A DNA stretch of 64,000 nucleotides from positions 47,952,211 to 48,016,210 of the forward strand of contig OX246742.1 in the NCBI GenBank assembly GCA_945910005.1, in the 5' to 3' direction. Position numbers and translations under genes: made by a program. Under the pieces are notes generated by a model that saw nothing but the letters and a program-made list of their open reading frames with translations, was not told where the DNA came from and searched no databases. Shown piece after piece: positions 8,487 through 64,000 of this stretch; position 1 is the first letter of the stretch, and every line of letters starts with the position of its first letter. This DNA is from Isoperla grammatica. Its lineage: Eukaryota; Arthropoda; Insecta; Plecoptera; Perlodidae.

Positions 8487-11400
8487 GTTTGGATATGATA
8501 ATGTTTGGGTGCCTTGTCAGTTACCGTATTAATAGTAGGCCTAGTTACGTGTTTCCTGAGACAACGTTACTGATGCTTTTGTTATAGACGAGTGGGTTGT
8601 GGTTGTGGCCTACCAGTGAGCCCCTCTGTTTCAAATACCGATCGCTGATTGGCCACGAGTTCCTCTTCTATGATGAAAGTATCTTCTACTTAGTACTTCA
8701 GGTTGTTTCGGGACCAGTAGACCTAGCCTATACTAATAGTTGCCAATGCAAATAACAATTTACTAGTACCATACCCTAGCTAGAGTAATAGTACAATATT
8801 TCACTATGAGTTACTATTGGTGGTGGTTAGGTCTACTCTAACAATCTCTTAAATGTATAGTCCTAAACTATAAATAAAATCATTCAATGTATGCTAATTA
8901 TCTACATGTTTGCTACCTTATAAATCATTATATTAAGGTGCATTCACAATCTTTACTAGTACTATGGTTTAGTGATTAAGACCAAGAAAAACCTTAGTCA
9001 CAGCCAATCAGAGCGCAGTATTCTCCCTCCCAGCCAATGAAAGAAGCCTGTGGCCTGTGGCAGGCCAGATCAAGAAGCTAATTTGTATTGGATAGCGAGA
9101 AAAATGAATGGCTGAAAGGTCATCATTGCATAAGAGGAAAAAAAAAAAAAGTCTTAATCATTAAACCATAGTACTAGTAAAGATTGTGAATGCACCTTTA
9201 TCCACTTTCATAACTTATTTCCAATTCTATACTAGCAGTAGCACATAACCAAATCAAGGTGCCATTATGTTACCTACTTCTTCAACTCATCTCATCAACT
9301 CATCTCAACTCATCTCATCCCTCTCTCATTGCCAGTACTACATACTATCCTATTAGCTCAAGAATCAAGTCAAGATGAATAAGCTTTCAGCAATCCAACC
9401 TTGAAACATCACTCTCACTCACTCACTCACTCACTCAATGCTTAAAGCAACCAACTAGCTTGGCAGGACTGCGTGTGCCATAATAATCGTCATAATACTC
9501 ATTACAATCTCGTTTTGTTGACAGCGATGGATCTTGAATACGGGAACTTGCTCTGCTTCCAATGCAACGACTACGTCTATGACCGAGAACTCTTAGCGAT
9601 CGCCACGGTCAGCGGGAAGTCAAGAACGAAGACCTCGAACCAGGGCATATACAATTCGTGGCCGGAATTAGTTTGGGAATGTGATCTCCTTTCACAGCAT
9701 AAAATAAGAAGAAAAGTGGTCGAGAATACGACGATTGGCATGAGAGGACTGATTAATCTAGGAAACACTTGTTTTATGAATTGCATCGTACAAGCACTGA
9801 CGCACACTCCGTTACTTCGAGAATACTTCCTCGCCGACAGGCATCGATGCCAGTTTGACGGCCAACCCGGATGTTGCTTTGTGTGCGAGGTGTCCCGGCT
9901 CTTTCAAGAGGTAAGATATTTGGCCCATGAAGCCCTAATTCATAGTTGTTGGAAATTATGGCAAAAGTTATTTGGTGAGAAATGTCTGTAGCCAGTAGCT
10001 GCCTATTGAAGTAGTTAAGACGAAGCCTATTCCCCCCAGATGGCTAAGACTAAGAGTATACCTACACCAGCTTAGAGTGTTTAGAGCCCCTTGGGATTGG
10101 CAGTGGACAATATCGATAAATTGCGTCGTAAAACTAATAATGTAAGCAAACTAAGCCAAGCAAACTTTAAGTGGTAGTCTTTATTTGTTCCAAGGCCGAA
10201 TGTATCCCAACAGTGGTTTAGAATGCGTGGTTAAGCCTAGCTAACGTAGTACTTTTAAAAATAACCACATGTTGAGCGTGAACTACTATGTGGTAGAAAT
10301 TAGTTACTGTGGGCGACATTGGCGGTGCCTCGACCATGGCCGAGGGCAGAGACGTAGTGTAGTTGTTTGTGTGCAGTTCTACTCGGGGGACCGCGCCCCG
10401 CTGGCCCTCCACCGCCTGCTACACCTGATCTGGACGCACGCTCGCCACCTGGCTTGTAATGTAACTGTATGTTGTGCAGTTCTACTCGGGGGACCGCGCC
10501 CCGCTGGCCCTCCACCGCCTGCTACACCTGATCTGGACGCACGCTCGCCACCTGGCTTGTAATGTAACTGTATGTTGTGCAGTTCTACTCGGGGGACCGC
10601 GCCCCGCTGGCCCTCCACAGCCTGCTACACCTGATCTGGACGCACGCTCGCCACCTGGCTTGTAATGTAACTGTATGTTGTGCAGTTCTACTCGGGGGAC
10701 CGCGCCCCGCTGGCCCTCCACCGCCTGCTACACCTGATCTGTGCTATGTACTCCACTCGACATAGGCTTATACATGACCAATAGGACTAGTAGGACTAGT
10801 AGGACTAGGGCCTAGTAGGCCTAGGCGTAGACACAAGAAATAGAGCGACTTGCCATGCCCGTCACCTTTATTCAACTGAACGAACTCAGAGAGCCACAGC
10901 TGCTCACACTCTCGCTGCGCACCGCCTTCTAGGCACTTGCTGACTGCTCGACCAGTATAATGGGTATTACTAAGACTAAGACTAAGACCACAACACTCCT
11001 TCCCCTTTACAATGCACAAAATCTTGACAGGGTATTACAATGTACAGAAATAAATGCAATACAAAATACAATTGAATACAATCTTCATACGAAGTACAAT
11101 TTTCCTTAAGTAGTCGTATACACCACCACACAATTTTTATAAATCTAGCTTAACCGGCACCTTGCGATTTCTACCTGACCGTCTGATCTCAACAGGTTCA
11201 GCAGTGGCTGGACCTCCCGGTTGGGGTGTTGAGGCCACACAGTGGTTTCCATCACGTACAATTTCATGCTCTATCGGTGGAGGTGAGTGAGGTGGATACA
11301 CTGGATGGTGACTTTTACCATTACCACTTAACTTCATCAATGTCGGAAACATTGGAGCAGATTCTTTAAACTCTAAAGAAGGACCTGGCTCCAGTGCATC

Positions 11401-14400
11401 TGGCAACATGGTATGTCTGAGATGGTCTGCATGAACCAATCTAATGCGATCCTCAGTTAATACCAAGTAAGTCACTGCACTTACTTTCTGTTTTACAACT
11501 CCACGTTTCCATGTTTCTCCCTTTTTCTTTAACGGCCCCACAGATTTAACTAACACCTGTTCATCTACAAGAAAATTCTTTACATGTTTAGTTTGGGCAG
11601 ATCTATTCATGACATTCAAACTGTTTTTCTGAAGGGTCAGGCCTAGATTTGGTTTTATCAAATCCAGTTTTGTTCGTTGTTTACATTTTAGCATCACTTC
11701 AGATGGTGACATCTGAGTTACAGTATTTGGGGTATTTCGATAGCTAAACAGGAAATTTGCAATAAGGTTTGGAATACTCTTGCCATTTCCTTCAACATTT
11801 TTACCTGCACTAAGCTTACTGAAGGCTTGTTTCACTGTTTGGACTGCTCTTTCCGCAAGACCATTAGATGACGGATGGTACGGAGGACTATGCATAAGAT
11901 TAATGCCATTTGATGTACAAAAGTCGCTAAACTCCGCAGAATTGAAAGGAGGACCGTTATCAGTAACGATGGTCTCTGGCAAACCAAAAAGTGCAATTAT
12001 TCCCCTGATTTTACTGATTACGTTACTGGCAGTTGTGGATTTCATTTCCCAAACTTCGAGCCACTTGGAGTAACTGTCGATGAGGATCAGCAAAGTCGTA
12101 TTATTTACTTTCGCGAAGTCTAAATGAATACGCTGCCACTGCCTAACAGACGTGGGCCAATTGCATAAGGGACTCTTTTTTTCGGCAGGTCTCCTCAGCT
12201 GGCAGGTTTCACAAACTTGTACTTGATTCTCAATGTCGGCATCCAGACCCGGCCACCAGACATGGCTTCGTGCTAACATTTTCATGCGAACTATTCCCGG
12301 ATGGTGTTCATGCAACATTCCAAGTACATGCTCCCGTAAGGACTCGGGTATGATAACGCGGTTTCCCCATGTTATGCAATTCTCGTCTAAAGATAAATCA
12401 TGTCGACGGCTGTAATAGGGTTGTAATTGAGGATCGTTTACAATCATAGGCCACCCATTTTGAGTTAGCGCCCTAACACGCGACAAAATTGGATCACGGA
12501 AGGTTGCCTTTACGATATCTTTCACGGTACAGGGAGTTACCTGGAAGGAGTCATCACCGGACTCACAGATTTGCTTTACGGGCGAAAATGAATAACTGCG
12601 TTCTTCAACCTGAGTACTAGGTAAGGGTAATCTAGACATGGCATCTGCATTAGCCAACTCTTTTCCCTTACGGTATTCAATTTCATACTGATAAGCCGAT
12701 AAAAATATAGCCCATCTCTGTAACCTAGCTGCTGCGAGTGTGGGTATTCCCTTTTTGCTTCCTAGAATGGTTTTAAGGGGTAGATGATCTGTGACCAAAC
12801 GGAACTTATGACCATATAGAAATTTATGAAAACGTCGCACAGCAAAGATTATACCTAAGGCCTCCTTCTCTACCTGTGCATAACCTTGCTCTGTCTTGCT
12901 AAGAGTTGATGACGCAAACATGACTGGTCTTTCGACTCCGTCAATTACATGCGATAAGACAGCCCCTACTCCGTAACTGGATGCGTCGCTGGAAACTACC
13001 ATGGGTTTGGAGGGGTCGTATGGCACTAGCAGTTGATTTTGTAACAGCAAGCGTTTACTTGTCTCGAACGCCTCCTTGCATGATTGAGACCAATCCCATT
13101 TTTCTCCCTTTTCGAGTAATTTATGCAACGGCTTGATCCGCGAAGCAAGACTAGGTAAAAAACGATGATAAAAATTAAGCATACCTAAATAGGCCTGTAG
13201 CTGGGTTACATTTTCAGGTTCTGGAGCTCGTGCAATCGCATCCATTTTCTCAGTTGTAGGGTGTATACCATGCTGATCAATAACGTGACCTAGGTACTCA
13301 ACACTAGTCTGAAAAAACGTACACTTCGAGAGGTTAACCCGGAAACAATGCTCTTCCAGTCTTTTTAGAACCACTAACAGTGTATTCTTGTTATCCTCTA
13401 CCGTATCTCCTATGATAAGAACATCGTCGAGATAACAAAATACATTTGGAATGCCCTTTAATACCTCGTCTATAACAGATTGAAAAATTGCCGGAGCGCT
13501 CGTTATTCCATAAGGCAGTCGAGTGAATTGGAACAACCCCATGTGAGTGTTCACAGTTAATACATGCTGAGATTGTTGCGTGACCTTTAGCTGTTGGTAA
13601 GCATTTGATAAATCGAGGACTGAAAACACTTTACCATTTGCCACCGAGGCTAGAATGTCATCTATCCTTGGTAAAGGATAATGCTCGGTATCAATGCATC
13701 TATTAACCGTGACCTTATAGTCTACACAGAGTCTGATTTTACTCGACTTTTTTTTTGGCACAATTACAAGTGGTGAAGCCCATTGGCTCCTCTTCACAGG
13801 CTTTAATGTTCCAACTTCCACTAACCTTTCCAGTTCTTTCCTTACAAGTTCTTTCAGGGCGTATGGCACATTGTATGCTTTGTGAAAAATAGGAACAACA
13901 TTATCCTTCAAAACTATGTCTGCTTCAAAACCTTTTATAGCCGATGTGCCATCCTCACTGAACACCTGTGGAAATTTACCTTGCAATGACCTAACCTCAT
14001 TTGCTAAAGTTACACATTGAACAGATTTAACAAAGCGGTTCCCATCTGATAGATCATGTCTCCAATTTGGGAACAGTACATCTAACCAAGGCCTTCCCAA
14101 TAAAGGGGTAAAATCTCGTACATGAGCTACTATCAACGACAAACTATGAACACAGTTGTGGTTTCCCACCACTGGAACCTTGATTTGACCACGTATTTGT
14201 AGACGATCACCCAGCACTGACTTTAACTTTAATGCAGATGGCTCACAAGGAATGTCACTAAACATTTTCTGATACATTTCATCTGAAATAATAGATTTAG
14301 CCGAGCCACTATCCACTTCCATTTCTATTATTTTACTATTGACTGTAATTGGAACCAAGAGCGGCCCTTCCTTGACAGGAATAGAATTACTCACCCGCTC

Positions 14401-17400
14401 TTCCCCACTTGCATCGTTAATACTAAAAGTATGACTAGACTGCATAGGCTTCTTGTGATTCGAAGTATTTACCACTTTAATCTCAAATTCTTCATCACTG
14501 ATCTCAGAACTTTGAGACTGCTCGTCACTGACACTTGACGCACTTGACGCTATGTTTTTTACTTTTATACGGTCACACACTCGAGAGGTATGTCCCATCT
14601 TTTGACAAGAATAGCAACGCCAATCCTTTGCTGGACATGTAGCTTCAGAATGGAAACGACCACATCTACGACATTGTTGCCTCGACTTACTGGACTCTTG
14701 AGGCTTACTTGACTGAGACTTACTCGACGCAGACTCCTTTACATGTTCTTGCTTTGAGCGGTTATTTTCCCTCTTGTAGCGCTGACCTCGACTCTTCAGT
14801 ATTTTCTTGACTTCTTCCTGACTGGACCCACTTGGATGGAGTAGTTTGGAATGGCTCCTTGCTAATTCCAATCCGCGAGCAATTTTACACGCTTTCTCGA
14901 ATGACAGCTCATCCTCACAGTTTAACAATTGCCTTTGGGCCTCATCATCCTTGATGCCACAGACAAACCGATCTCGAAGGGCACGGTCAAGGTATGAGCC
15001 AAAATTACATGAGATAGCTAGACTCTTCAATTCGACTATGTAATTGTCTATGGACTCACCCTCTTTTTGGTTACGCTTCCCGAATTTAAAACATTATGCA
15101 ATGACGGACTTTGCAGGAGCAAAATGTTTCTTCAGGGCGGACACTAACACTGTGTAAGTTTTCCCTTGGGGGGTTTCTGGACTCAAAATTGACTTCAATA
15201 TAGTGTAGAGTTTAGCACCCATAAGTGTTACGAATATGGAAGCTCTTTTTACCTCAACCACCTCATTTGCTTTGAAGAATTCTTCAAGCCGTTCGGCGTA
15301 AGAATTGAAATCTTCGATTTGAGGATCAAACTCATCGACCTTACCGACGAAACCCATCTTGACTCAGGACGGAACACAGAACACGTGTAGACGGACAATA
15401 GTAGACAGACATTAGCAGGCTAGCTAGGCCTATATTCAAGATGTCACTCGACGCGACAACGCCCCCTTTTTCATACGCCTACCTTTTTGCGGACACTCAG
15501 ACTTCACGCCCGACAAAAAGCCATTTAAAAATGCCCAACGGGTTCTTGATACCTCGTCGCCAAGTTTGCTATGTACTCCACTCGACATAGGCTTATACAT
15601 GACCAATAGGACTAGTAGGACTAGTAGGACTAGGGCCTAGTAGGCCTAGGCGTAGACACAAGAAATAGAGCGACTTGCCATGCCCGTCACCTTTATTCAA
15701 CTGAACGAACTCAGAGAGCCACAGCTGCTCACACTCTCGCTGCGCACCGCCTTCTAGGCACTTGCTGACTGCTCGACCAGTATAATGGGTATTACTAAGA
15801 CTAAGACTAAGACCACAACAATCTGGACGCACGCTCGCCACCTGGCTTGTAATGTAACTGTATGTTGTGCAGTTCTACTCGGGGGACCGCGCCCCGCTGG
15901 CCCTCCACCGCCTGCTACACCTGATCTGGACGCACGCTCGCCACCTGGCTTGTAATGTAACTGTATGTTGTGCAGTTCTACTCGGGGGACCGCGCCCCGC
16001 TGGCCCTCCACCGCCTGCTACACCTGATCTGGACGCACGCTCGCCACCTGGCTTGTAATGTAACTGTATGTTGTGCAGTTCTACTCGGGGGACCGCGCCC
16101 CGCTGGCCCTCCACCGCCTGCTACACCTGATCTGGACGCACGCTCGCCACCTGGCTTGTAATGTAACTGTATGTTGTGCAGTTCTACTCGGGGGACCGCG
16201 CCCCGCTGGCCCTCCACCGCCTGCTACACCTGATCTGGACGCACGCTCGCCACCTGGCTTGTAATGTAACTTTGTGCAGTTCTACTCGGGGGACCGCGCC
16301 CCGCTGGCCCCTCCACCGCTGCTACACCTGATCTGGACGCACGCTCGCCACCTGGCTTGTAATGTAACTGTATGTTGTGCAGTTCTACTCGGGGGGACCG
16401 CGCCCCGCTGGCCCTCCACCCGCCCTGCTACACCTGATCTGGACCGCACGCTCGCCACCTGGCTTGTAATGTAACTGTATGTTGTGCAGTTCTACTCGGG
16501 GGACCGCGCCCCCGCTGGCCCTCCACCGCCTGCTACACCTGATCTGGACGCACGCTCGCCACCTGGCTTGTATGTAACTGTATGTTGTGCAGTTCTACTC
16601 GGGGACCGCGCCCGCTGGCCCTCCACCGCCTGCTACAACCTGATCTGGACGCACGCTCGCCACCTGGGCTTGTAATGTAACTGTATGTTGTGCAGTTCTA
16701 CTCGGGGGACCCGCGCCCCGCTGGCCCTCCACCGCCTGCTACACCTGATCTGGACGCACGCTCGCCACCTGGCTTGTAATGTAACTGTATGTTGTGCAGT
16801 TCTACTCGGGGGACCGCGCCCCGCTGGCCCTCCACCGCCTGCTACACCTGATCTGGACGCACGCTCGCCACCTGGCTTGTAATGTAACTGTATGTTGTGC
16901 AGTTCTACTCGGGGGACCGCGCCCCGCTGGCCCTCCACCGCCTGCTACACCTGATCTGGACGCACGCTCGCCACCTGGCTTGTAATGTAACTGTATGTTT
17001 TGCAGTTCTACTCGGGGGACCGCGCCCCGCTGGCCCTCCACCGCCTGCTACACCTGATCTGGACGCACGCTCGCCACCTGGCTTGTAATGTAACTGTATG
17101 TTGTGCAGTTCTACTCGGGGGACCGCGCCCCGCTGGCCCTCCACCGCCTGCTACACCTGATCTGGACGCACGCTCGCCACCTGGCTTGTAATGTAACTGT
17201 ATGTTGTGCAGTTCTACTCGGGGGACCGCGCCCCGCTGGCCCTCCACCGCCTGCTACACCTGATCTGGACACACGCTCGCCACCTGGCTTGTAATGTAAC
17301 TGTATGTTGTGCAGTTCTACTCGGGGGACCGCGCCCCGCTGGCCCTCCACCGCCTGCTACACCTGATCTGGACGCACGCTCGCCACCTGGCTTGTAATGT

Positions 17401-20400
17401 AACTGTATGTTGTGCAGTTCTACTGGGGGGACCGCGCCCCGCTGGCCCTCCACCGCCTGCTACACCTGATCTGGACGCACGCTCGCCACCTGGCTTGTAA
17501 TGTAACTGTATGTTGTGCAGTTCTACTCGGGGGACCGCGCCCCGCTGGCCCTCCACCGCCTGCTACACCTGATCTGGACGCACGCTCGCCACCTGGCTTG
17601 TAATGTAACTGTATGTTGTGCAGTTCTACTCGGGGGACCGCGCCCCGCTGGCCCTCCACCGCCTGCTACACCTGATCTGGACGCACGCTCGCCACCTGGC
17701 TTGTAATGTAACTGTATGTTGTGCAGTTCTACTCGGGGGACCGCGCCCCGCTGGCCCTCCACCGCCTGCTACACCTGATCTGGACGCACGCTCGCCACCT
17801 GGCTTGTAATGTAACTGTATGTTGTGCAGTTCTACTCGGGGGACCGCGCCCCGCTGGCCCTCCACCGCCTGCTACACCTGATCTGGACGCACGCTCGCCA
17901 CCTGGCTTGTAATGTAACTGTATGTTGTGCAGTTCTACTCGGGGGACCGCGCCCCGCTGGCCCTCCACCGCCTGCTACACCTGATCTGGACGCACGCTCG
18001 CCACCTGGCTTGTGATGTAACTGTATGTTGTGCAGTTCTACTCGGGGGACCGCGCCCCGCTGGCCCTCCACCGCCTGCTACACCTGATCTGGACGCACGC
18101 TCGCCACCTGGCTTGTAATGTAACTGTATGTTGTGCAGTTCTACTCGGGGGACCGCGCCCCGCTGGCCCTCCACAGCCTGCTACACCTGATCTGGACGCA
18201 CGCTCGCCACCTGGCTTGTAATGTAACTGTATGTTGTGCAGTTCTACTCGGGGGACCGCGCCCCGCTGGCCCTCCACCGCCTGCTACACCTGATCTGGAC
18301 GCACGCTCGCCACCTGGCTTGTGATGTAACTGTATGTTGTGCAGTTCTACTCGGGGGACCGCGCCCCGCTGGCCCTCCACCGCCTGCTACACCTGATCTG
18401 GACACACGCTCGCCACCTGGCTTGTAATGTAACTGTATGTTGTGCAGTTCTACTCGGGGGACCGTGCCCCGCTGGCCCTCCACCGCCTGCTACACCTGAT
18501 CTGGACGCACGCTCGCCACCTGGCTTGTAATGTAACTGTATGTTGTGCAGTTTACTCGGGGGACCGCGCCCCGCTGGCCCTCCACCGCCTGCTACACCTG
18601 ATCTGGACGCACGCTCGCCACCTGGCTTGTAATGTAACTGTATGTTGTGCAGTTCTACTCGGGGGACCGCGCCCCGCTGGCCCTCCACCGCCTGCTACAC
18701 CTGATCTGGACGCACGCTCGCCACCTGGCTTGTAATGTAACTGTATGTTGTGCAGTTCTACTCGGGGGACCGCGCCCCGCTGGCCCTCCACCGCCTGCTA
18801 CACCTGATCTGGACGCACGCTCGCCACCTGGCTTGTGATGTAACTGTATGTTGTGCAGTTCTACTCGGGGGACCGCGCCCCGCTGGCCCTCCACCGCCTG
18901 CTACACCTGATCTGGACGCACGCTCGCCACCTGGCTTGTGATGTAACTGTATGTTGTGCAGTTCTACTCGGGGGACCGCGCCCCGCTGGCCCTCCACCGC
19001 CTGCTACACCTGATCTGGACGCACGCTCGCCACCTGGCTTGTAATGTAACTGTATGTTGTGCAGTTCTACTCGGGGGACCGCGCCCCGCTGGCCCTCCAC
19101 CGCCTGCTACACCTGATCTGGACGCACGCTCGCCACCTGGCTTGTGATGTAACTGTATGTTGTGCAGTTCTACTCGGGGGACCGCGCCCCGCTGGCCCTC
19201 CACCGCCTGCTACACCTGATCTGGACGCACGCTCGCCACCTGGCCGGCTACGAGCAACAGGATGCGCACGAGTTCTTCATCGCGGCGTTGGACGTCCTGC
19301 ACAGACACTGCAAGGGGGCCAACGATGAGATGCCCGACATGGACAACCCTCACCACTGTAACTGCATCATCGACCAGATCTTCACGGGTGGGCTTCAGTC
19401 TGACGTCGTCTGCCAGGCTTGCAAGTGAGTCCATTGCCTGTATAACATGCTGGTCTGTAGCGCCCAAACAATCCATCTGACTGAAATATGCTGCGCTGCA
19501 TCCTTAATATCCATGCAAACAACTGACGTGAGTTAAATATCCACGCTACGTGTCTAGCGAAGAAAACAATAGGAAAGGATAAGAAAAATGTGGCCTTTCA
19601 ATACTTTTAAAAACACAATTTTCTGTTTGTATTTCCAAAGTGAAACATCAATACTGCACAGCTCTAATATTAGAGGAATTTCTATGATTTGTTCTAAAAC
19701 ATTTTGTAGTAGTTGTGTTCCAGTTAGCAGAAACGTAGCGTTGCGTCACTTTACGCTTGTTGTCGTGTGGTGTCCACAGTGGAGTGTCCACGACGATCGA
19801 CCCGTTCTGGGACATCTCTCTGGACCTGGGCGCCGCGCAGTTGGCCGGGGGGGGTTTACCCCTCGATCCCCTCAAACAGGCAGAGGCCCAGCCTGCGCCC
19901 ACCTCCCTCGTCGACTGTCTAGAGCGTTTCACACGCGCCGAACACCTTGGTTCCTCCGCCAAGATCAAGTGCAACAACTGCCAGAGCTACCAGGAGTCGA
20001 CCAAACAGTTGACCATGAAGAAATTACCCGTCGTCGCTAGTTTCCATTTGAAGCGTTTCGAGCATTCTAGTAGATTTCATAAAAAGATTTCTACGTTCGT
20101 GTCGTTCCCTGAACAGTTGGACATGACGCCGTTTATGTCGAGCAGAAGAAACCACGTGGGCGCTCTGAACGGGAAGATTGCTTCACGGGCGGCTTTCAGA
20201 CCCAACGGCAGCATGTCCGATAACAAGTAAGTTGAATACCCTGTGCTGTAGTTTAGTCTCTTGCGGCCATTTTCTATGCGTCTGATATTGTTGTGTACCA
20301 GGATTCACTGGTAGAGCAAGGAATCTAAAGATAAAGCTTGCGGGGAGCGCAACTCTTTATTCAAGTGAATTAGTACAACTGGGATCGATGCAATGTCTGA

Positions 20401-23400
20401 GGACGTTAGGATTTCAGGATGCGAAAAATAACTAGACTTGGTTCAAGCAACAATAAGGAACCGTATTTTAATTATTGAAACACTTAATTGTCCTAACCCT
20501 GGCAATGATGTGGCGACCCTGCTTAGGCTTTATACGTATGACTACACAATACCATCCCGTACCCGCACCACGTCAGCTGTACCTGGTCATTTCGTAGTCT
20601 GCCTGTCGACGGACATTGCCACGTTCGAGTCTCCAATGCAGCTTCCTCGACCCGCCGTCCTGCAGCTCTTCTACGCTGACCCTCGTAGCTATGACGTGCT
20701 CACTGGTGCCCGACCATCTTCCCTCGACACTCCGATCAGTTCGACCCCCGTTCAAGCCCCGTGCCCAACTTAAATACTCCCCCTGCTATCCCCTCTCTCT
20801 GGCATTTTCCCCAACACATGACGTATGTCACCAAACAATCCCAAGACCCAAAGCTATCAACAATCAACTTACAATCGTCTACAATCAAGCCTGGGCCTCC
20901 TGGACAACACCTGACACAGCAAAATAACCAAACTATTATTATGATTATTATGCATGTGTCGGTAATCAGATGTTATTGTAGTTGCCCAAGACTGATGGTG
21001 ACACAATAGCAACCTCAGCATTAACCTAATTGCGAGCAGTACAAACACAAAACAGAAAATGTTATGAGATTGCTTCATCATGTCTTGAATCAAATAGCGT
21101 AAATCACGTAATAAGAGAGAATTAATGTGACAAATGGACAAGTCCCACGCCGGACATTACATCCCCCCCTTTAACATCCAGCGCCCACGCTGGAGCCGTG
21201 ATTTATCGCAAACCAGAGAGAGAAAACAGTTACCTCAGTTGGGGATAAGACACAATAAACCAAAATAAAACCCCAGCAAAACCCCCACATCATTGCCATT
21301 AATACAAGTAAAAGTTGCCATACAAATTATGAAATAAAAAAAAAAATTACCACGGCACTTTAGAAAAAATACGCCACCATACACATTGAGTCTAACAATT
21401 CACAATTCAAGAATCATGGTGCGTTTACAAAAGTTATAATTCAAAATACAATACAAATCTTGTCTTCTTAAAAAAAAAACATACGGTTCCTCTTGACAAT
21501 GTTGACTCCGGAATCGAACAATCACTCGACCCAAAGTCTTTTCTCCTCCAACCCGTTGACGGCAGTCCCAACCACCCAAGTCAACAGATCGTCGGGTTGA
21601 ACACACAGATCAGCGATGTAAAACCAACTGGAACATAAAACAAAACACCAGCAGAATTGCATCCCGATACCGTAGTTCATCGGCTATACTACCAAGTTGC
21701 CAAAATGACACCGACCAACAGTAGGCAGGTTCCACTATAGTCGTCTTACGTAATACATAACAGCTGACATGAGAGAGCAACCCTGACCGCGCGACATAAT
21801 GTAAACAATAACAAATACGCGACAGACAAGAGCGCTCTGAGCAGCACAACAGAACATCGAATAATGACAACATACGTGAAACCAGGACCCTCCCCTGCTC
21901 ACTCACACACACAAATGCTCTATCACATCATAGAGGGACACGATGCCTAAAAAAAAACAGTAGAATCCACGCATCAAATGCTGATTCCATCCACTCGCCA
22001 CCAACAGAGACCAACACAAGCACAAACAATTCACGCGAGACTGTCGTCTTACAACACCCCGCCGTGGCGCTTGCTCGACTAAGACAACGAAATAATAAGC
22101 ATTTATGACCGCAATGGGACGCAGCCAACCATCACCAGAACTGACACATAAGAAAATGAGTTTGACCAAAGAAAACGACAAATCCACGTTGTTGACCAAA
22201 AGTCCAGTACACTCAATGCACACAAAGCCATCATCTGTGAAACTCAGCGCGATGCGGCCGCAAAGCAAAGAGAAACACCGGGAATGTCCATCAATCCCTA
22301 ATCCTAATAAAACCTAAAGGTAATTAAATAAAACTAATTATCCTCCCTCTTCCTCACAACTGCACGTGTGCACGCGCACAGAAAAGAGAAGAGAGGAGAC
22401 AACTACACCTATAATGTGACAAAGTCACGCCATAATGAACTAGACCTACACCTAACACTTCTATGGACATTCCCACCAGAGAAAGCTACCCCTGTGCATA
22501 CATCGAGCAACCAGACAACTGATCGAACAATCTGACCCGTCGCTCTAGGACAATACTGTCAACGTACCGCCGCACGATGAATATTTTCAGAATTTCAATA
22601 TTGAAATATTTTCCCCTGGCTTGTTCTTGCCAAACCAAGCCAAACCCTAACAAACAGTAGTGCCTGATTCAATCGTGCACAGAGTATACAGCTGCCGTGT
22701 CGGAGTGGATGCCGACTACGCGCGGACCTGGCTATATCGCAGTCGCATCATCAGCCAGCGGTCCAGCGTCCGCGCGCGGCACGACTAAGCTCGCGTCAGG
22801 CCTCGAACCAAAGACAATGCAACACAGGCCCAACCGAGCACTAGCCACCCCCCAAACCGACAATAACACCCCACAAGGATAAAAGTAGACCTCGTATCGT
22901 CCCGAGCCGCATAAAACGACTGCAATAAACTCAATGATTCCTGGCCGCCTGTAGCGACCAACCCGCCCGAGCTCACGAAATCCGAGCTACCAGGGCAGTC
23001 AAAATATTTAGCCCCCCCTTCACCCATTACGAAAGGGGCTACACAGTCAGCAACTCAGCAATCGTGTATCACTGACCGCGACGCACAACACATTTGCGTA
23101 ACAACACAATACTTCGCTACCAAGCTGCATGCACTTTACATCATACAACGTATTACAACAACGCCACGTGATTGCGCATAGAGCCAAATCCACGTATCAG
23201 CAGTAATAAAAAGAAACAACTATAAAGAAACAAAAAGACAAACAAGCAAAAATACCATACATACAAGAAACACATGTAACCATACAGTCATGAGAAAACC
23301 GCCTTACCACGCAACGAGGCTGTGTGACAACACGATAACAAAGAAGACACACTAGCCGTCACTTCCCTCCAACGAGGACAATCGCGACACCCATGAACTG

Positions 23401-26400
23401 CAAAAATCACAATCACACACCAGTTATACCACAAAACATAGAAAACACAAAACTATCCCCCACATCAGCTTCAATCCGGCCAAGGAAACCGCCATTCTTC
23501 CGGATCATACCAGGGCTTAAGCCGTGACACATGCACTGTCTCCTCTACCCATTTATTGTTGAGCTTTAACTTTATGCGGTAGTTCAAATCAGACAGTTTT
23601 TCAAGAATCTGAAACGGACCCAACCACCGATGCATAAACTTCTCGACTAGCCCAACCTTACGTAGAGGGAAAAACACCTTGACAAACTGTCCAACCTCAT
23701 AAGTCACGTGTCTTCGACCCTGGTCATAACCCGCCTTCTGCTTCGCCTGCTCGGTCCGAATCACCTCAAGCGTGGCTTCACGCGCATCCCTCAGCCGCTG
23801 CAATCGTGCCTCACTCTCCTCCCCAACCTGCAAATCGGGCTGAAGCCCCGCATCCATCGGAAGGGTGGGCTCACGACCATACACGAGATAGAAAGGAGTT
23901 CGTTTCGTCGTTGCTTGGATTGAAACGTTGTACGAAAATGTGCAAAGACGCACATATTCACACCAATTATCGTGACGTGAGTTCACGAAAAACGACAACA
24001 GGGTGCCCAACGTGTGATTAAATTTTTCGTCCAATCCATTCGTAGACGGCCGGTACGAGGTAGTATACAGCGAACGCACCCCTAACCCCCGGACAATTTC
24101 CGTGACCAAATTGCCCCGGAAAACACTGCCACGATCGCTCAAAATCATTCGAGGACATGAATGTTGACAAATAACATCCTCGATAATGAAAGTAGCGACG
24201 TCAACAGCACCCCCCGAAGGAATAGGTCGCGCCATAGCCCATTTCGTCGCATAGTCGGTAGCCGTGACGATGAATCGATGACCATGAACACTGCGTTTCA
24301 ACGGACCCAACAAATCTATACCAATCATGTCAAAGGGTGCGCCGACTGCAATAGGTTGTAACAACCCCGCGGGCTTCAAATTAGGGCCCTTCTTCCCTTG
24401 ACAATCGCCACAACTTTTGACATAACTGAGAACTTCCCGAGCCATGTTGTCCCAATAGTATCGCGAATGAAGCTTGCCATAGGTTTTCATATAGCCCAGG
24501 TGCCCCCCGCCAGCCGGACTATCATGGGCATCGTAGAGAAGCTCGACCTTCATACTGTCAGGCACAACAAGAAGCTTACTCGGTCCATTAGGAACGAAAT
24601 TCTTCCGATACAAAACTCCGTTCTCTAACACGTAACTTCTCGTTTGCCGACGTACTTTAGAAGTAGCAGCGTCAGGATCCGTCATAGCCGCAATCAGCTC
24701 GGCAAGGCGAACATCCCCCTGCTGCGCCCGGGCTATCTCATCTATGTGAACAGGAGTGGTCATAACCTCCATGTCGTCCTCAATATTCTCCGGCTCAGGA
24801 CCACCCTCAGGCAACAACCTACTCATGCAATCTGCATCAAGATGTAGCTTCCCCGACTTATATACAACTTCCATCTGGTGGTCCAGCAAGTAAATACTCC
24901 AGCGTGCCAATCGTCCCCCTCGCTCGCTGTTCTTCCGTAGGAAGCACAGTGCGCAGTGATCTGTTACTACCTGGAACGGACGTCCCCACAAAAAGTGACG
25001 AAAGTACTTTACCGCCCAGACAATAGCCAAACACTCCAGCTCTGTAACTCCATAGTTAACCTCCGCATTAGTTAACCTACGAGAGGCATAACCAATGGGA
25101 TGCCACTCGGAGTCAAACTGCTGCAAAATGACAGCCCCTAAACCCTCTCGCGAAGCATCCGTTCTCAACTGAGTGGGCGCCGTGTCTGAAAAATGTCTTA
25201 GGACCGGGGCGGAAAGAAGCTTGTCCTGCAATGTGCGAAACGCCCCCTCCTGCTCAGGACCCCAATGAAAACGTATGTCCTTCTTCGTCAAAGCCGTTAG
25301 GGGTGCACAAATCTGACTAAAATTCGGCACGAATTTCCTGTAAAACGAAGCCAAACCCACAAACGAACGAACCTGTTTTAATTTTGTAGGCACTGGAAAA
25401 TTCTTCACTGCACTAACCGTGTCGGGATTGGGACTCACCCCCTCAGCACTCACGATGTGACCGAGAATCTTTACCTCCTTGTAGCCGAAAGAACATTTCT
25501 CCGGGTTTAATGTCACATTCGCGCGCCGAAACCGCTGTAGAACCAATTCCAACTTCTCCAGATGATCATCGAACCCCCGACCCTTCACTAACACGTCATC
25601 GAGATAAACAATGCAATGAGAAAATTTCAACCCTCCTAAGATCTTGTCCATAGCGGCCTGGAAGAGAGCTGGGGCTGTAGAAATACCAAACGGTAGAACT
25701 TCAAATTTAAACAACCCCTCACAACAGGAGAAACTACATATTTCTTTAGCTCGTGGGGTTAGACCTAATTGCCAAAATCCACTCTGTAAGTCAAGGGTTG
25801 AAAACATACTACAGCCCTCCAAGCACGCGAGGAGATCGTCTGCATTAGCACTAGGATAACTATAGCCTTTGACCTTAAGATTGACCTTACGAAAATCAAC
25901 CACAAGACGTAACTTTCCGTTCTTCTTACGTACTAACACGATGGGACTGGACCACTCAGACGTGGAAGGAGAAATAACACCTGCCCTCAACATGTCCTGA
26001 ATATGTGTCTTAATAACCTCCCGTTCCCCTGGACTCACACGATACGGCTGCATGTGAACAGGAGTCGTTTACCCGGCGCCTCCACCAACTTTGTTGTGTA
26101 CCAGGATTCACTGGTAGAGCAAGGAATCTAAAGATAAAGCTTGCGGGGAGCGCAACTCTTTATTCAAGTGAATTAGTACAACTGGGATCGATGCAATGTC
26201 TGAGGACGTTAGGATTTCAGGATGCGAAAAATAACTAGACTTGGTTCAAGCAACAATAAGGAACCGTATTTTAATTATTGAAACACTTAATTGTCCTAAC
26301 CCTGGCAATGATGTGGCGACCCTGCTTAGGCTTTATACGTATGACTACACAATACCATCCCGTACCCGCACCACGTCAGCTGTACCTGGTCATTTCGTAG

Positions 26401-31142: not shown

Positions 31143-31335
31143 TTGAATTATTATTACTATTATTTACAAGCAGATGTGGAGGAGAGGGGAGAGGAGTGGC
31201 CAGTGGTAGAGGATAGAGAAAGATGGTGGGAGGACAGGAAAAAGTGGAAAGAGTTGATGGAATGGCAAGAGAAATTCATTGACGAAGAGAATGAAGTTGA
31301 AGAAAATGATTTGTCGAGCTTGGCATGCTGATACT
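31143..31335 (+). pseudogene. Possible transposon coding remnant (low confidence)
   Basis: A 62-codon frame encodes a Glu/Trp/Lys-rich segment (DVEERGEEWPVVEDRERWW, DRKKWKEL). The wording resembles the C-terminal tail of some invertebrate LINE ORFs, but no catalytic motif is present, and an AT microsatellite follows directly. It may equally be a chance frame. Confidence 0.25.
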
Positions 31336-31409
31336 GGTTCCTGGGATGCCCAAGATCAATGTTGGGAACACCCCTTTACCCAACTAAATGATGTTGGAAT
31401 AAAGAGTAG

Positions 31410-31411
<2 letters not shown>

Positions 31412-31453
<42 letters not shown>
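31412..31453. repeat. (AT)21 microsatellite
   Basis: Uninterrupted AT dinucleotides, followed by GTACTATT and a short ATT run. Confidence 0.95.
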
Positions 31454-31457
<4 letters not shown>

Positions 31458-32145
31458 TATTTATTATTATTATTATTGAGTTAGATCTTGGGCAATCGCT
31501 CATATTAACTTAACACTTCCACTGTTTGTAGGTCTGCATTGGTTACTTATTATTTATTGTCAGCCTGCTTCTGAGTGTGTGTGATTGCATGCACTGTCCA
31601 GGAGCTAACGGAACAACTAACATTATTTGAGTTGTGGAGAAAGTATGCATTTAGAAACATTAAAACTAAAAGAAAAAACATGCAGTTAACATGTGACACT
31701 CATTTCAGCTTCTTCTCACATTTCTGAAAGTTTTTTATGCAACAATTATAGTATGCACTCTTGAAGTTGGCTACCTCAAATTGAAAACAAAGAAAAAATC
31801 ATTTGCAGTGACATGTTTCCTCCTTTCTATCTCCTAATGTATATCAAAACCACATTGTAGGAGAATGTCTGACTAAAACGTAATTTAATCTGGCAAAACC
31901 ATAAACCTCGTGTTATAAATAGTATTTCATTTGCAAACTTCTTACTTTGGTTAGAGTCACCTATAGATGTGTGTTTCATTATTTGCCTGGACAATTGGAT
32001 GTCACATGTTCTGTTCTATCATCGTTGCTGCACGAGAGCTCTTTGGTCACACTCACGCACACTCAAAGGCCGAGTCTGGCCATGCAAGAGTGTTATGTCA
32101 TTTTGCATATATGGTGTAGTATTTATTTGTATTATATTTATTGGT

Positions 32146-32410
32146 ATGGGGAGGCGTACAACAAACGACTACACTGCAGCGCTTTGAGCGTTCCGGCCAC
32201 TGAGAAGTGTCTGCAAGAATTCTCCGAAAACCCCTCTAGAAGGCAGTACACTAATAATTATTAGGAAAATGTACATAGATTCCAAAGAAGTCAAATAATT
32301 TTTCAGCGACTTAGAAATTCTTATTGTTGAAAGTTATGTGTATCCAATATTCAGTGACTGTTGGCCGGATCGCTCGCAACGCTCTCTGTGCACTTGTTAC
32401 GCCTCCCCAT
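32146..32410. mobile_element. MITE-like element with ATGGGGAGGCGTA ends (copy A), 265 bp
   Basis: The left end ATGGGGAGGCGTA is the exact inverse of the right end TACGCCTCCCCAT. The interior contains CACTGCAGCG, GTGTCTGCAAGAATTC, GAAAACCCC, AAGAAGTCAAATAA, GTTGAAAGTT and CGCTCGCAACGCTCT. The same ordered interior words and right end recur at 40664-40930 in a HEXD intron, so this is a dispersed family. No target duplication is clear. Confidence 0.75.
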
Positions 32411-33820: not shown

Positions 33821-33842
33821 TGATGATGATGATGATGATGAT
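33821..33842. repeat. (TGA)7 microsatellite
   Basis: TGATGATGA repeats directly after GATAATAAAA. Confidence 0.9.
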
Positions 33843-33899
33843 TGCCTCAAAGACACGTAGAGCTCTGTCCGGGTCTGTGGTGCACTGCAGCCAAACAGG

Positions 33900-33915
33900 C
33901 CCCCCCCCCCCCCCC
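33900..33915. repeat. Poly-C tract of 16
   Basis: Sixteen C in a row, opposite in strand to the three poly-G tracts in the first 7 kb of the window. Confidence 0.9.
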
Positions 33916-34440: not shown

Positions 34441-34447
34441 TGCTAGG

Positions 34448-39900: not shown

Positions 39901-42900
39901 TCCTACCAACAGGGGTTTTCATGGTAGTTGCACATTCCTGTGCTAGGTTTGCCCAGTGTGTGTGTGGGGGGGGGAGGGGGGGGGGGGGGGGGGAGGATGG
40001 CAGGAGCAGGACTGTTCAATATAGGGCCGCACTCCTTCCAACTAGGTTGGTAGGAGACACAGCCTTTAAGAAATCCCATAAAATGTGTAATTGGCAATCT
40101 TGTGTCCCAAAGCCTAAGCCCATGCACAGTAGTTGGCATCGGGATTGCAATTGCTATCTGTAAAAAGTGGAAAGTTGATTACCGTATATTTTTAAAATTT
40201 CCATGGTTGTAGGAAAAATTGCAAACCAGATCTTGCTTCGAAGACAGTTCAATTTTTTATTTTCAATTGTGATTTCTAATTCATATCAAACATTGTAGCC
40301 TAGATGCTTTGTCACACATTTACCTCTTGTTCTACAGGTATGGCATATGGGCCTGTGCCCAACATGCTCACAGCGAGTCAAGTGCCCCAAGGGGCGCTCG
40401 CGGCTGTTTCTCGAGCACATTGCCGCGGTAGCGCAGTTTGTACGCGACGCGTATCCGAACCTGGTTGTGGTCATGTGGGACGATATGCTTCGGCCCATGG
40501 ATGTGGGTACGCTCTTGGAATTCAACTTGGGACAGCTAGTTGAGCCAATGGTGAGTTTATCTCCCTTCTTCAATTTTTCTTATGTCATACTGTAATCTTT
40601 AATCGTAACTATTCTTATAAACTGGATGCTCGTGCACATGAAAAATGTTGTACTACAAAACTATGGGCTAAAATAAAACACTGCAGCGCTGGGAGTGCGG
40701 CCACCGAGCACTGCCTGCTAGAAGTCACCGAAAACCCCTTGAAGAAGCAGTAAACGATTTATCATTGGGTAAATAGTTACTAGTCAGTCCAAATGAAATG
40801 ATTCGTAAGAAGTCAAATAGTTTGATCAATGAATTAGACATTCTTATATTGTTGAAAGTTGTAGTGTATTAAATATTCAGTGACTTGGCCGGAGCGCTCG
40901 CAACGCTCTAGGCTGGCTACGCCTCCCCATTCTTACGTGCCTAGGTATGTCCCTGAACAACGTTTAGATGCTCTCTTCTATAGACAAGTGGTTCTTCTTT
41001 CATTGTAATGGCCTTGAATACTAGTTCATTTCGGCCAGTCTGGGTAGGCTTAGTGTTGTCTAGGTTGAGACAAATAACCTAGAAGATAAGGTACTATGTT
41101 CTTGCTCGGAGCTCGTTGAGCTTGAAGGATATGAGTAGAGGGCAGGCTCGGTAAGAGATGGTTGGACTCGGAACATGTTCTATTGTTCAGGTGTGGCACT
41201 ACGCGCCGGCAGAGTCCTTCTCGCTTGCGGAGGACGTCTGGGACCGATACTCGGCCGTGTTCCGCTCCGTGTGGGCGGCGACGGCGTTCAAGGGCGCAAC
41301 GGGCGGACGCCAGCTGGTCCCCGACGCCCGGCACCACGCTGGCAACCACGAGCGTTGGCTGCGCGTGCTGGACGTGCACGCTGGCAAGTTCCGGGCGTTC
41401 AGGGGCGTCGCCCTCACCGGCTGGTCCCGGTACGTTCAGAGCCTCGCCCGACGTCGGTCACGATGCTTTTAAATGCAAATTAGCCTATACTATGGTTCGT
41501 ATTCTCTGTCAACCTATCATACCAGTGCACGTGGTTGCTAATAATTTTGATATTTGTATTTATTGCCCTCTGTAAATCAATTTTTATAACTGATGAATAG
41601 GATAGACATTAAATAAATTAATAAAATAACAATCATCCATAAAACAAGTCCTAACACCCAAGATTTATGTTGGCATAGGCCTCGAATATGGGCCAAAGTC
41701 ATCTTTCTAATGTTTCAAGAAATCTCACATGTAGACTATATGCATGAAAATGCTAGTAAAGATACTACCCTACTACTAACTAATAATAATGTAAGCTTAC
41801 TTAATTCATTGAAGGATCGTTTCTAAAGCAGGCTTTTGTGGTTCTTTTCAAGCACCATTCAGAATCGGTTGTAAGGCTTCACGTGTAGGCGGTAGGCTTA
41901 AGGCGGGTGTTTCAACGCAACTGGTCGCTATGCGTCGTAAGGGTTGAGAAGAAGTCGGTCATATCTTTGACCATACTTTCGGGAGAATTACCCTCATAGT
42001 GACATGGACCTTGTCTTCTTTGTAGGTTAAAACTGTGTCTGAACTAAGTATGTCCTGTCCCCCAGCTACGACCACTACGCCGCGCTGTGTGAGCTACTGC
42101 CTGCCGCGCTGCCCAGCCTGTTGCTGTGCCTGCAAGTGTGTCTGAACTAAGTATGTCCTGTCCCCCAGCTACGACCACTACGCCGCGCTGTGTGAGCTAC
42201 TGCCTGCCGCGCTGCCCAGCCTGTTGCTGTGCCTGCAACTGTGTCTGAACTAAGTATGTCCTGTCCCCCAGCTACGACCACTACGCCGCGCTGTGTGAGC
42301 TACTGCCTGCCGCGCTGCCCAGCCTGTTGCTGTGCCTGCAACTGTGTCTGAACTAAGTATGTCCTGTCCCCCAGCTACGACCACTACGCCGCGCTGTGTG
42401 AGCTACTGCCTGCTGCACTGCCCAGCCTGTTGCTGTGCCTGCAACTGTGTCTGAACTAAGTATGTCCTGTCCCCCAGCTACCACCACTACGCCGCGCTGT
42501 GTGAGCTACTGCCTGTCACGCTGCCCAGCCTGTTGCTGTGCCTGCAACTGTGTCTGAACTAAGTATGTCCTGTCCCCCAGCTACGACCACTACGCCGCGC
42601 TGTGTGAGCTACTGCCTGCCGCGCTGCCCAGCCTGTTGCTGTGCCTGCAACTGTGTCTGAACTAAGTATGTCCTGTCCCCCAGCTACGACCACTACGCCG
42701 CGCTGTGTGAGCTACTGCCTGCCGCGCTGCCCAGCCTGTTGCTGTGCCTGCAAGTGTGGCTGAACTAAGTATGTCCTGTCCCCCAGCTACGACCACTACG
42801 CCGCGCTGTGTGAGCTACTGCCTGCCGCGCTGCCCAGCCTGTTGCTGTGCCTGCAACTGTGTCTGAACTAAGTATGTCCTGTCCCCCAGCTACGACCACT

Positions 42901-63900: not shown

Positions 63901-64000
63901 CCGCGCTGCCCAGCCTGTTGCTGTGCCTGCAACTGTGTCTGAACTAAGTATGTCCTGTCCCCCAGCTACGACCACTACGCCGCGCTGTGTGAGCTACTGC
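36958..64000 (+). CDS. HEXD: Hexosaminidase D orthologue, GH20 (partial, runs off the window)
   Basis: HEXD removes terminal beta-N-acetylhexosamine; the mammalian enzyme is nucleocytoplasmic, and no signal peptide is seen here either. Exons 36958-36986, 37141-37576, 40338-40550 and 41191-41429 join with consistent phases to 305 codons plus two bases, then enter an exon beginning C|TACGACCAC whose start is repeated about 215 times to the window edge. Recognisable blocks match human HEXDC in order: RLVHLDLKG, FPLFRDWG, PLVQTFGH, HLREVEAYP, YLHIGADEV (catalytic Asp154-Glu155), VMWDDMLR, LVEPM, AFKGATGG, TGWSRYDHYAALCELLP. The C-terminal third (human 486 residues) must lie right of the window. 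The final exon is not seen, so whether the gene is intact cannot be judged. Confidence 0.93.
37141..37576 (+). CDS. HEXD: HEXD coding exon 2: GH20 barrel first half and catalytic pair
   Basis: After TATTTTGCAG the exon begins G|CTAGTTCAT and ends GCTGATGAG|GTAGGC in phase 0. It covers LVHLDLKG, LVEWEDTFPY, VPLVQTFGHLEFVLKH, REVEAYP and LHIGADE. The Asp-Glu pair at the very end is the GH20 polarising/acid-base dyad. A Harbinger-like MITE begins only 27 bp after the donor. Confidence 0.95.
37604..38399. mobile_element. PIF/Harbinger-like MITE interrupted by a hAT-like element
   Basis: Ends AGGTTCATTCACAATCTTT and inverse AAAGATTGTGAATGCACCT, flanked by TTA (37601-37603; 38400-38402) like the copy at 8936-9197. 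Its left ACTAGTAC was the target of the 617-bp element at 37631-38247. Without that insertion the MITE is about 171 bp and lacks an interior segment of the other copy. It lies in HEXD intron 2. Confidence 0.85.
37631..38247. mobile_element. Non-autonomous hAT-like element, 617 bp
   Basis: Ends TAGGGATGTCAA and inverse TTGACATCCCTA with a perfect 8-bp target duplication, ACTAGTAC (37623-37630; 38248-38255). Subterminal CCCGGGTACCCG and TACCCGGGTA repeats lie at either end. No transposase. A truncated, inverted relative is at 39339-39821. Confidence 0.9.
38525..38831. mobile_element. MITE-like element with GACTACGTATATCAC ends, 307 bp
   Basis: Left GACTACGTATATCAC...CAAGTT...GGCGC, right GGCGCC...AACTT...GTGATATACGTAGTC: an interrupted terminal inverted repeat of about 45 bp in HEXD intron 2. 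No convincing target duplication. Confidence 0.7.
38885..40073. mobile_element. Fold-back element with long inverted arms, 1189 bp
   Basis: Left arm TTTCTTAAGGCTGTTTCTCC and following words (CCTAGTTGGAAGGAGTGCGG, AATGTGCAACTACCAT) reappear in inverse order and orientation at the right end (CCGCACTCCTTCCAACTAGG, AGGAGACACAGCCTTTAAG). Inner repeats of GGCAGGAGTGTT and AAAACAGCTG also pair across the centre. A truncated hAT-like copy (39339-39821) sits inside, and a long G-rich tract occupies 39966-39993. No coding capacity. Confidence 0.8.
39339..39821. mobile_element. Truncated inverted hAT-like copy nested in the fold-back element
   Basis: GTTAAACGGTATCAGGTTGC, ATGACGTCATAGTC and GTAACGGGTACC are the reverse complement of the 37631-38247 element. 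It keeps one terminal repeat (TTGACATCCCTA at 39810-39821) and has lost the other, being replaced by unrelated sequence left of 39339. Confidence 0.8.
40074..40337 (+). other. HEXD intron 2, right end
   Basis: Unique-looking sequence ending in a TTGTTCTACAG acceptor. No element is seen. Confidence 0.5.
40338..40550 (+). CDS. HEXD: HEXD coding exon 3
   Basis: Starts GTATGGCAT (V completing GADEV, then WHMG) and ends GAGCCAATG|GTGAGT, 71 codons, phase 0 at both ends. It encodes LFLEHIAAVAQFVRD and NLVVVMWDDMLRPMD, with the GH20 VWDDM strand, and QLVEPM. Other frames over the same bases are open but do not match the family. Confidence 0.93.
40551..41190 (+). other. HEXD intron 3 containing MITE-like copy B
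   Basis: Between the GTGAGT donor and TTGTTCAG acceptor lies a second copy (about 40664-40930) of the family at 32146-32410: CACTGCAGCG, GAAAACCCC, GTTGAAAGTT, CGCTCGCAACGCTCT and the right end TACGCCTCCCCAT are shared. The left terminal repeat is not preserved. Confidence 0.75.
41191..41429 (+). CDS. HEXD: HEXD coding exon 4
   Basis: Starts GTGTGGCACTAC and ends TGGTCCCG|GTACGT in phase 2. It encodes VWHYAPAESF, WAATAFKGATGG, HHAGNHERW and FRGVALTGWS plus two bases of R. Unlike the AT-rich introns it is GC-rich. Joined to C|TACGACCAC it gives GWSRYDHYAALCELLP, as in human GWQRYDHYSVLCELLP. Confidence 0.95.
41430..42030 (+). other. HEXD intron 4, unique 5' part
   Basis: GTACGT donor followed by about 600 bp of AT-rich sequence with no recognised element. 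The first minisatellite unit begins at AACTGTGTCTGAAC, 42031. Confidence 0.7.
42031..64000 (+). repeat. About 215-copy minisatellite of HEXD 3' splice site plus exon start (22 kb, open-ended)
   Basis: The main unit is 103 bp: 35 bp of intron end (AACTGTGTCTGAACTAAG, then TATGTCCTGTCCCCCAG) plus 68 bp of exon (CTACGACCAC to CTGTGCCTGC). The first exon-like start is 42066, the next 42169. Every unit offers a branch-point-like CTGAAC/ACTAAG, a pyrimidine tract and CAG. Variants: 95-bp units lacking 8 bp (GCCGCGCTGCC to GCC), 102-bp units with TATGTCTGTC, and point variants CTGTCGCG, CAAGTGTG, TGTGGCTG, GCCACGCTG and CTACCACC. Read from the HEXD frame, each unit runs into TAA inside CTGAACTAAG. 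The array reaches the window end without a terminal exon. Frames of 61-78 codons inside are repeat read-through. Confidence 0.97.
57241..58460 (+). repeat. Higher-order duplication (2 x 610 bp) inside the HEXD minisatellite
   Basis: Six units from 57241 (95-bp unit, CAAGTGTG unit, GCCACGCTG unit, three standard units) are repeated in the same order from 57851; a further 95-bp unit starts at 58461. The block length equals 95 + 5x103. The second block's last unit differs by one base (TGTGGCTG). This indicates block duplication by unequal exchange or conversion. Confidence 0.85.

Follow-up and report, generated by a model that had tools for sequence, protein, structure and literature searches.

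We examined a window of 64,000 bp of the Isoperla grammatica genome (contig OX246742.1, positions 47,952,211 to 48,016,210, forward strand) in one haplotype. The window holds two neighbouring genes, which kept the names USP22 and HEXD given in a preliminary description: the first showed a USP/UCH domain and matches to insect USP22, the second a GH20 hexosaminidase domain and matches to insect HEXD, and the protein matches of both loci led to polyneopteran insects, so that a lancelet source for the window was rejected. Tandem Repeats Finder reported a period of 103 bp at 10370–10741 and 15821–19244 in USP22 and at 42031–64000 in HEXD; together with the unit counts, this confirmed that both genes carry arrays of 103-bp units spanning a splice acceptor. 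The two consensus units were unrelated when compared by eye, as had been described.

The exon of USP22 that precedes the array intron (9525..9910, plus strand; tblastn with the insect USP22 protein P0121 and reading frame) ends in SRLFQE. The array follows on the plus strand in two blocks. The left block (10370..10741) comprises three full units and part of a unit interrupted by an LTR retroelement, and the right block (15821..19244) comprises 32 full units with a partial unit at either end; the last copy runs into the remaining exon (19168..19424, plus strand; tblastn and reading frame), with its acceptor just before 19168. The retroelement lies on the minus strand (10742..15820; LTRs at 10742–10995 and 15567–15820), contains a long open frame at 11137–15093 on that strand and is accompanied by a 5-bp target duplication, ATCTG. 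Its LTRs are identical at 254 of 255 compared bases, the mismatch being the first base of the target duplication. The two blocks are a single array divided by a young LTR retroelement, with 37 copies of 103 bp, of which 35 are full units (commonest type, 16/35). The earlier division of the unit into 26 bp of intron and 77 bp of exon fits to within 1–2 bases. The leftmost intron stretch is unlike the inner units. Six consecutive units (16182–16799) are rich in small indels and resemble an unpolished patch.

In HEXD, the exon preceding the array intron (41191..41429, plus strand; tblastn and reading frame) ends in GWS + CG. The array begins at 42031 on the plus strand, passes the window end at 64000 and continues to window coordinate 72084 (C12:48024294), with its last acceptor at window coordinates 72004/72005, beyond the window. 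The size of 22 kb first given for it was too small: the whole array measures 30,054 bp and has 295 units, 41 of them of 95 bp. The 215 full units in the window comprise 181 of 103 bp, 29 of 95 bp, 4 of 102 bp and 1 of 94 bp. The units span the acceptor as described, but the exact split into 35 bp of intron and 68 bp of exon did not stand: since a 12-bp imperfect repeat is common to intron and exon, the split is ambiguous, with 23–35 bp of intron and 68–80 bp of exon. The intron copy of this repeat, AACTGTGTCTGA, lies at 42031..42042 (plus strand), and the exon copy, AAGTGTGGCTGA, at the right array end, outside the window. The array edges carry these two parental forms, and at both variable sites of the repeat both bases are present inside the array.

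Exon-border arrays in the sampled genome

We sampled 264 kb (263,790 bp) around the window and 36 kinase loci elsewhere in the genome. USP22, HEXD and ten further arrays had units spanning a splice border. These 12 exon-border arrays are distributed over 8 genes; 8 of them span an acceptor and 4 a donor. Their main unit lengths were 46, 58, 76, 85, 92, 99, 103, 103, 115, 144, 150 and 155 bp. One donor array was found 47 kb past the window end, and the other donor arrays elsewhere in the genome. LLGL carried arrays at several borders of one gene, and similar border arrays in other genes had merely 2–10 copies. For LLGL-92 and the SDR gene the border was placed by eye. Three repeats were excluded from the 12: an array of 28-bp units (C12:47882375) that has a donor-like GTAAG but no coding evidence, a 79-bp array (C12:48115620) truncated at the edge of the examined stretch, and a 16-bp repeat directly after an exon in locus L054. 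The first two were counted among the 28 arrays used as denominator below, and the third was not.

Within the 263,790 bp, 9 of 28 arrays were located at exon borders. After removal of USP22 and HEXD-103 the enrichment persisted (7 of 26), with P = 4.8e-4 for an assumed 150 borders and 2.6e-3 for an assumed 200. The sampled kinase exons had arrays at 2 of at most 72 borders (95% interval 0.3–10%).

The preliminary description had judged a shared mechanism likelier than chance as the source of the common period; the USP22 and the HEXD array could both be products of a process that advances in fixed steps of about 103 bp, or of a duplication preferring acceptors. The two genes are adjacent and identical in main period, and under a log-normal model an exact tie between two arrays named in advance has a probability of only 0.008. 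The tie was spotted after the fact, however, and a tie somewhere among the 12 arrays has a probability of 0.40 when the log-normal is fitted to the other ten lengths. Those ten arrays range from 46 to 155 bp with none at 103 bp, four of them are at donors, and the HEXD array itself includes the 95-bp units (41/295). The ratio of 8 acceptor to 4 donor arrays gave no support for a preference for acceptors (two-sided P = 0.39), and the remark that the donor side is never duplicated holds for USP22 and HEXD but fails in the sample. Spread unit lengths and donor arrays, the two observations named beforehand as speaking against a shared step, were thus both made within the sampled 264 kb and 36 loci. 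On this sample, the common 103-bp unit is best read as a coincidence, and we regard a fixed step or an acceptor-preferring duplication as extremely unlikely.

Probable origin and tolerance of the arrays

We consider it probable (roughly 0.8) that the arrays are minisatellites of the mirage type, arising by tandem duplication across an exon border, growing by expansion and tolerated through the exon-adjacent copy, with a coincidental match at 103 bp. A segment of about 50–150 bp, comprising a splice site and the end of the exon next to it, would have been duplicated in tandem, and the duplicate would then have expanded into an array; we infer these events from the arrays seen. In HEXD, the initial duplication most probably linked the intronic and the exonic copy of the 12-bp imperfect repeat, an event that we infer from the repeat sequence observed. 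Such edge homology is not a general route: of 11 tested arrays, only 4 had edges more similar than every control, and these four include the 28-bp array lacking coding evidence and another in low-complexity sequence. SMURF-46 gave P = 0.035 and SMURF-155 P = 0.10, and no edge similarity relative to controls was found at USP22, LLGL-92, LLGL-150, HEXD-85 or the SDR array (P 0.47–1.0). Templating from spliced mRNA was rejected because the units contain intron sequence.

The arrays would be tolerated because the copy adjoining the remaining exon still gives a normal exon border. In an acceptor array this would be the last acceptor, in a donor array the first donor, and all remaining copies would behave as intron. 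The reading frames agree with the earlier proposal that an array survives through one usable exon-adjacent copy: the last acceptor gives the expected conserved protein in both USP22 and HEXD, and the first acceptor leads to a stop after 61 residues (USP22) or 28 residues (HEXD). In the SDR array each unit holds only about 9 bp of intron, so that a good acceptor may be missing from the last copy.

The AG was intact in all 215 full HEXD units of the window and in all 35 full USP22 units, as could be expected if the arrays were retained for a function, e.g. as a splicing switch tuning expression through competing acceptors. Only 19 of the 103 HEXD positions are variable, however, so that an intact AG is expected without selection. 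The arrays were moreover seen in genes unrelated to one another and at both kinds of splice site, and they resemble the product of a general mutational process; retention for function is decidedly improbable.

Relation to known minisatellites

The lancelet Adh gene, with Canestro 2002 as its original paper, had been named as a precedent. That precedent was confirmed in the passages compared (PMC3087553), where splicing is reported, from RT-PCR, to be undisturbed by the arrays. These lancelet (Branchiostoma) "mirage" minisatellites are described for Adh3, the globins BflGb6 and BflGb9, PGBD5 and troponin C (PMC3087553, PMC3902484). According to those passages, they share with the stonefly arrays tandem units that span the intron-exon border at acceptors and donors, broadly spread unit lengths (10–72, 60, 108, 150–160 and 157 bp), splice signals in many units and an intact exon-adjacent copy. 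The stonefly arrays differ in their insect host, in their size, which reaches 295 units or 30 kb (3–6 units in lancelet BflGb6 haplotypes), and in the occupation of several borders in one gene (LLGL). The HEXD variants are near-random in order, and the lancelet-mirage passages compared contain no such study.

The part of PMC4974935 that we compared also describes a tandem duplication that crosses the border between intron and exon and puts the splice signals of the parent sequence to use again; there, a single duplication gives a new intron, whereas the stonefly arrays have many copies and no sign that a new exon has formed between introns. Units of tens of bp, partial edge copies and variant units are likewise known from ordinary GC-rich minisatellites, but the stonefly arrays are centred on exon borders, with a splice site in each unit. 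We found no border-spanning arrays in insects or stoneflies among the literature matches listed. The kind of array is known, as mirage minisatellites, and what is new is the insect host, the apparent abundance, the scale and the near-random HEXD variants in linkage equilibrium.

Within the literature compared, splice-border minisatellites were previously a lancelet matter. Hundreds of near-identical acceptors per gene would, if true, be natural experiments on splice-site choice: in one species it becomes testable whether the spliceosome picks the first or the exon-defined site among hundreds, and how often genes tolerate border-crossing tandem duplications and new introns can start from them. 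Array-bearing borders may defeat gene prediction and the mapping of short reads.

Unit variation and possible turnover in HEXD

The internal exon copies of HEXD carry amino-acid changes and, in 30 of 215 units, an 8-bp deletion, as expected of untranslated copies. The unit variants follow a near-random order along the array and show linkage equilibrium down to a distance of 5 bp, which suggests short-tract exchange between units. A scrambled consensus could in principle give such an order if the arrays were largely assembly artefacts; typical HiFi reads are shorter than a 30-kb array of near-identical units, and the indel-rich USP22 units point the same way. Against this, unique flanks were found on both sides of the arrays, one array contains an insertion with a target-site duplication, other genes have comparable arrays of 2–10 copies, and the assembly is reported, in the part of its description compared, as HiFi with QV 55 (PMC13033136). 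We consider an artefact very unlikely, and the copy number of the long arrays uncertain.

The longest repeated block in HEXD comprises 7 units, which is at chance level (P = 0.13), and the neighbour excess is 0.022. Large block duplication as the mode of recent expansion was rejected: simulated exchanges of blocks with a mean size of 10–30 units leave repeated blocks of about 20–30 units after 20 events, in a search for repeated blocks limited to 30 units. About 20 recent small-block events (mean 3 units) are compatible with the values observed: when simulated, they gave 0.029 for the neighbour excess and 8 units for the longest block. Only tentatively do we extend the mirage-type origin to a genome-wide, possibly ongoing tandem amplification of exon borders, perhaps at a few percent, combined with a turnover of HEXD through exchange of very short tracts, under which its units would resemble a freely recombining population. 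At the two transversion sites of HEXD, recurrent mutation is an unlikely alternative to exchange; it is possible for the 8-bp deletion, which sits between TGCC repeats.

Tandem arrays at the USP22 and HEXD acceptors

We identified the two genes by Pfam and PDB comparisons, USP22 by its USP/UCH domain and HEXD as hexosaminidase D; the top matches of both were insect orthologues, and the protein matches agreed with a polyneopteran insect. As the preliminary description had stated, both acceptor-spanning arrays have a period of 103 bp according to the tandem-repeat finder (TRF), at 10370-10741 and 15821-19244 in USP22 and at 42031-64000 in HEXD. The two USP22 blocks are a single array broken by an LTR retroelement, which is flanked at both ends by the target duplication ATCTG and whose LTRs are identical at 254 out of 255 compared bases (the odd base is the first of the target duplication). 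The near-identical LTRs and the ATCTG on both sides point to a recent insertion into a pre-existing array. The commonest unit type accounted for 16 of the 35 full USP22 units. Nearly all small indels of this array fell in six successive units (16182-16799), which resemble a low-quality consensus patch, and a seventh indel-bearing unit was found further on. A second retroelement (20432-26960) lies in a USP22 intron; segments are repeated at its ends, and its minus strand has a long open frame (23471-26068). Upstream of USP22 there is a third array away from any recognised exon (5888-6606; 98-bp units and an 83-bp variant), with diverged copies running beyond its TRF end at 6468.

The HEXD array had been described as 22 kb long; flanking sequence extends it to window coordinate 72084, with a total of 30,054 bp and 295 units, a copy number that is uncertain. 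The 215 full units in the window comprised 181 of 103 bp, 29 of 95 bp, 4 of 102 bp and 1 of 94 bp, and over all 295 units the 103-bp and 95-bp lengths were represented by 246 and 41 units, respectively. At the right edge the exon goes on as CTGCAAGTGTGGCTGACGGGAAGC, and at the left edge the intron sequence is AACTGTGTCTGAACTAAG. The two edges have a 12-bp repeat in common, whose copies differ at two sites; within the array both bases are present at each of these sites, in all four combinations. Inside those 12 bp it is not possible to say where intron ends and exon begins in the unit, and the proposed 35 bp of intron plus 68 bp of exon holds as one among several admissible splits.

Several HEXD unit variants at CpG sites (unit positions 17, 40, 41 and 43; 42031-64000) were C-to-T or G-to-A changes, as germline methylation would leave. 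A HEXD intron also contains large imperfect inverted repeats (37652-39808; arms of 61-131 bp, 80-97% complementary) resembling foldback or MITE-type elements, and smaller inverted repeats are common to this region and 8932-9201. Finally, the USP22 and HEXD locus tags are consecutive in the wasp Eretmocerus hayati (QAD02_006137, QAD02_006138), so this neighbourhood (7362-74693, window coordinates) may be old in insects.

Border arrays in the neighbourhood and at kinase loci

We surveyed 263,790 bp of contig C12, including the window at C12:47952211-48016210, for arrays with units of at least 25 bp and a TRF score of at least 150, and found 28 (29 merged rows, both USP22 blocks counting as one). 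Nine of the 28 spanned exon borders, some of them placed by eye: three in LLGL (units of 92, 150 and 99/116 bp), one in USP22 (103 bp), two in HEXD (103/95 and 85/70 bp), two in SMURF (155 bp, at a donor, and 46 bp) and one in an SDR gene (76 bp) that we take to be DCXR-like. Under random placement with an assumed 150 borders of 100 bp each, this enrichment had P = 1.6e-5; without USP22-103 and HEXD-103 (7/26) it had P = 4.8e-4, or 2.6e-3 with 200 borders. The GC-richness of exons may by itself favour arrays. The SDR array is an exact double copy (C12:48092962-48093116), and with only ~9 bp of intron per unit it is perhaps a very young duplication with a weak second acceptor. A 6.7-kb array of 80-bp units and multiples lies 19 kb upstream of the window (C12:47926294-47932949).

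The I. grammatica assembly searched comprised 874,298,753 bp in 603 contigs, one haplotype (ipIsoGram3.1 was published as 874.6 Mb in 682 scaffolds; PMC13033136). A kinase-domain search gave at least 139 matches (126 of 679 candidates scored), from which 36 loci were taken by rule: every third of rows 13-70 (20) and of rows 14-47 (12), and rows 50, 53, 59 and 62 (4); row 56, which belongs to the gene already represented by row 58, was skipped. In this small sample, 3 of the 36 loci (95% interval 2-22%) had a border array, every one at a donor: GSK3 (115 bp), CDK11 (144 bp, at a neighbouring exon on the locus edge, 1.9 copies visible) and a Fused/STK36-like kinase (58 bp), presumably Fused/STK36 itself. 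For the kinase-hit exons, arrays were present at 2 of at most 72 borders (0.3-10%).

The preliminary description had judged a common mechanism likelier than chance for the shared 103 bp and had seen only the acceptor side duplicated in these two genes. Main units of the 12 pooled border arrays (local and kinase loci) ranged from 46 to 155 bp with no peak near 103 bp, and an exact tie anywhere among 12 such lengths has a probability of 0.40 (0.008 between two named arrays). Nor was a preference for acceptors supported in this sample: acceptor arrays numbered 8 vs 4 at donors (P = 0.39).

Predicted splicing and lancelet precedents

Read from the first acceptor, USP22 and HEXD reach a stop after 61 and 28 residues, respectively, whereas both give the conserved protein from the last acceptor. 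The main unit length was not a multiple of three in 9 of the 12 arrays (exceptions: 99, 144 and 150). The spliceosome would use the copy adjoining the rest of the exon and remove the remaining copies as intron, which is plausible in this insect; this usage was reported from RT-PCR for lancelet genes (PMC3087553). Among the inner copies of the HEXD exon, an 8-bp deletion was present in 30 of 215 units and amino-acid changes were also seen, as expected for untranslated copies. The AG is intact in all full units, which is weakly informative because only 19 of the 103 HEXD unit positions vary.

The amphioxus Adh precedent named in the preliminary description is indeed in print, as the lancelet Adh3 border minisatellite (PMC3087553), with units of 10-72 bp; others were described in globin genes, at both borders and with units of 150-160 and 157 bp, in PGBD5, with units of 60 and 108 bp, and in troponin C (PMC3087553, PMC3902484). 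The stonefly arrays are of the same kind as those reported there, with their splicing predicted from DNA. No insect case was among the matches listed in our literature search, in which subscription papers were thinly covered. New relative to the lancelet cases are the insect host, the apparently common occurrence, the array size and the shuffling of HEXD units.

Birth and turnover of the arrays

Similarity between array edges was compared with controls in 11 arrays (GSK3 and CDK11 left out). The edges were set by TRF and take in partial copies, which makes this comparison less than fully independent. Edge similarity exceeded all controls in four arrays: HEXD-103, the Fused-like kinase, LLGL-99 (low-complexity sequence) and a 28-bp array without coding evidence. 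SMURF-46 and SMURF-155 gave P = 0.035 and P = 0.10, respectively, and nothing stood out at USP22, LLGL-92, LLGL-150, HEXD-85 and the SDR array. Short homology thus appears to be one route to array birth and no general rule.

Variants in the HEXD array were shuffled. Across 294 units, none of the 26 testable variant pairs was associated at P < 0.1 (power being low for rare variants), and two sites 5 bp apart had an odds ratio of 1.00. One of the 24 neighbour tests gave P = 0.015 and the others P > 0.05, while one variant was more frequent in the first half of the array (24 vs 13). Identity between units at lag 1 had P = 0.11, none of the lags to 150 was outstanding (P = 0.40) and the longest repeated block was at chance level (P = 0.13). 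In simulations, large-block duplication left long repeated blocks and single-unit duplication raised neighbour similarity (0.044 after 20 events vs 0.022 observed); about 20 small-block events may be compatible with the observed array. Short-tract exchange or template switching among distant units would yield such shuffling, and recurrent mutation or consensus artefacts may also lie behind it. In USP22, all five carriers of one variant fell within the last 12 of the 35 units (P = 0.002), so the near-random unit order of HEXD is not general.
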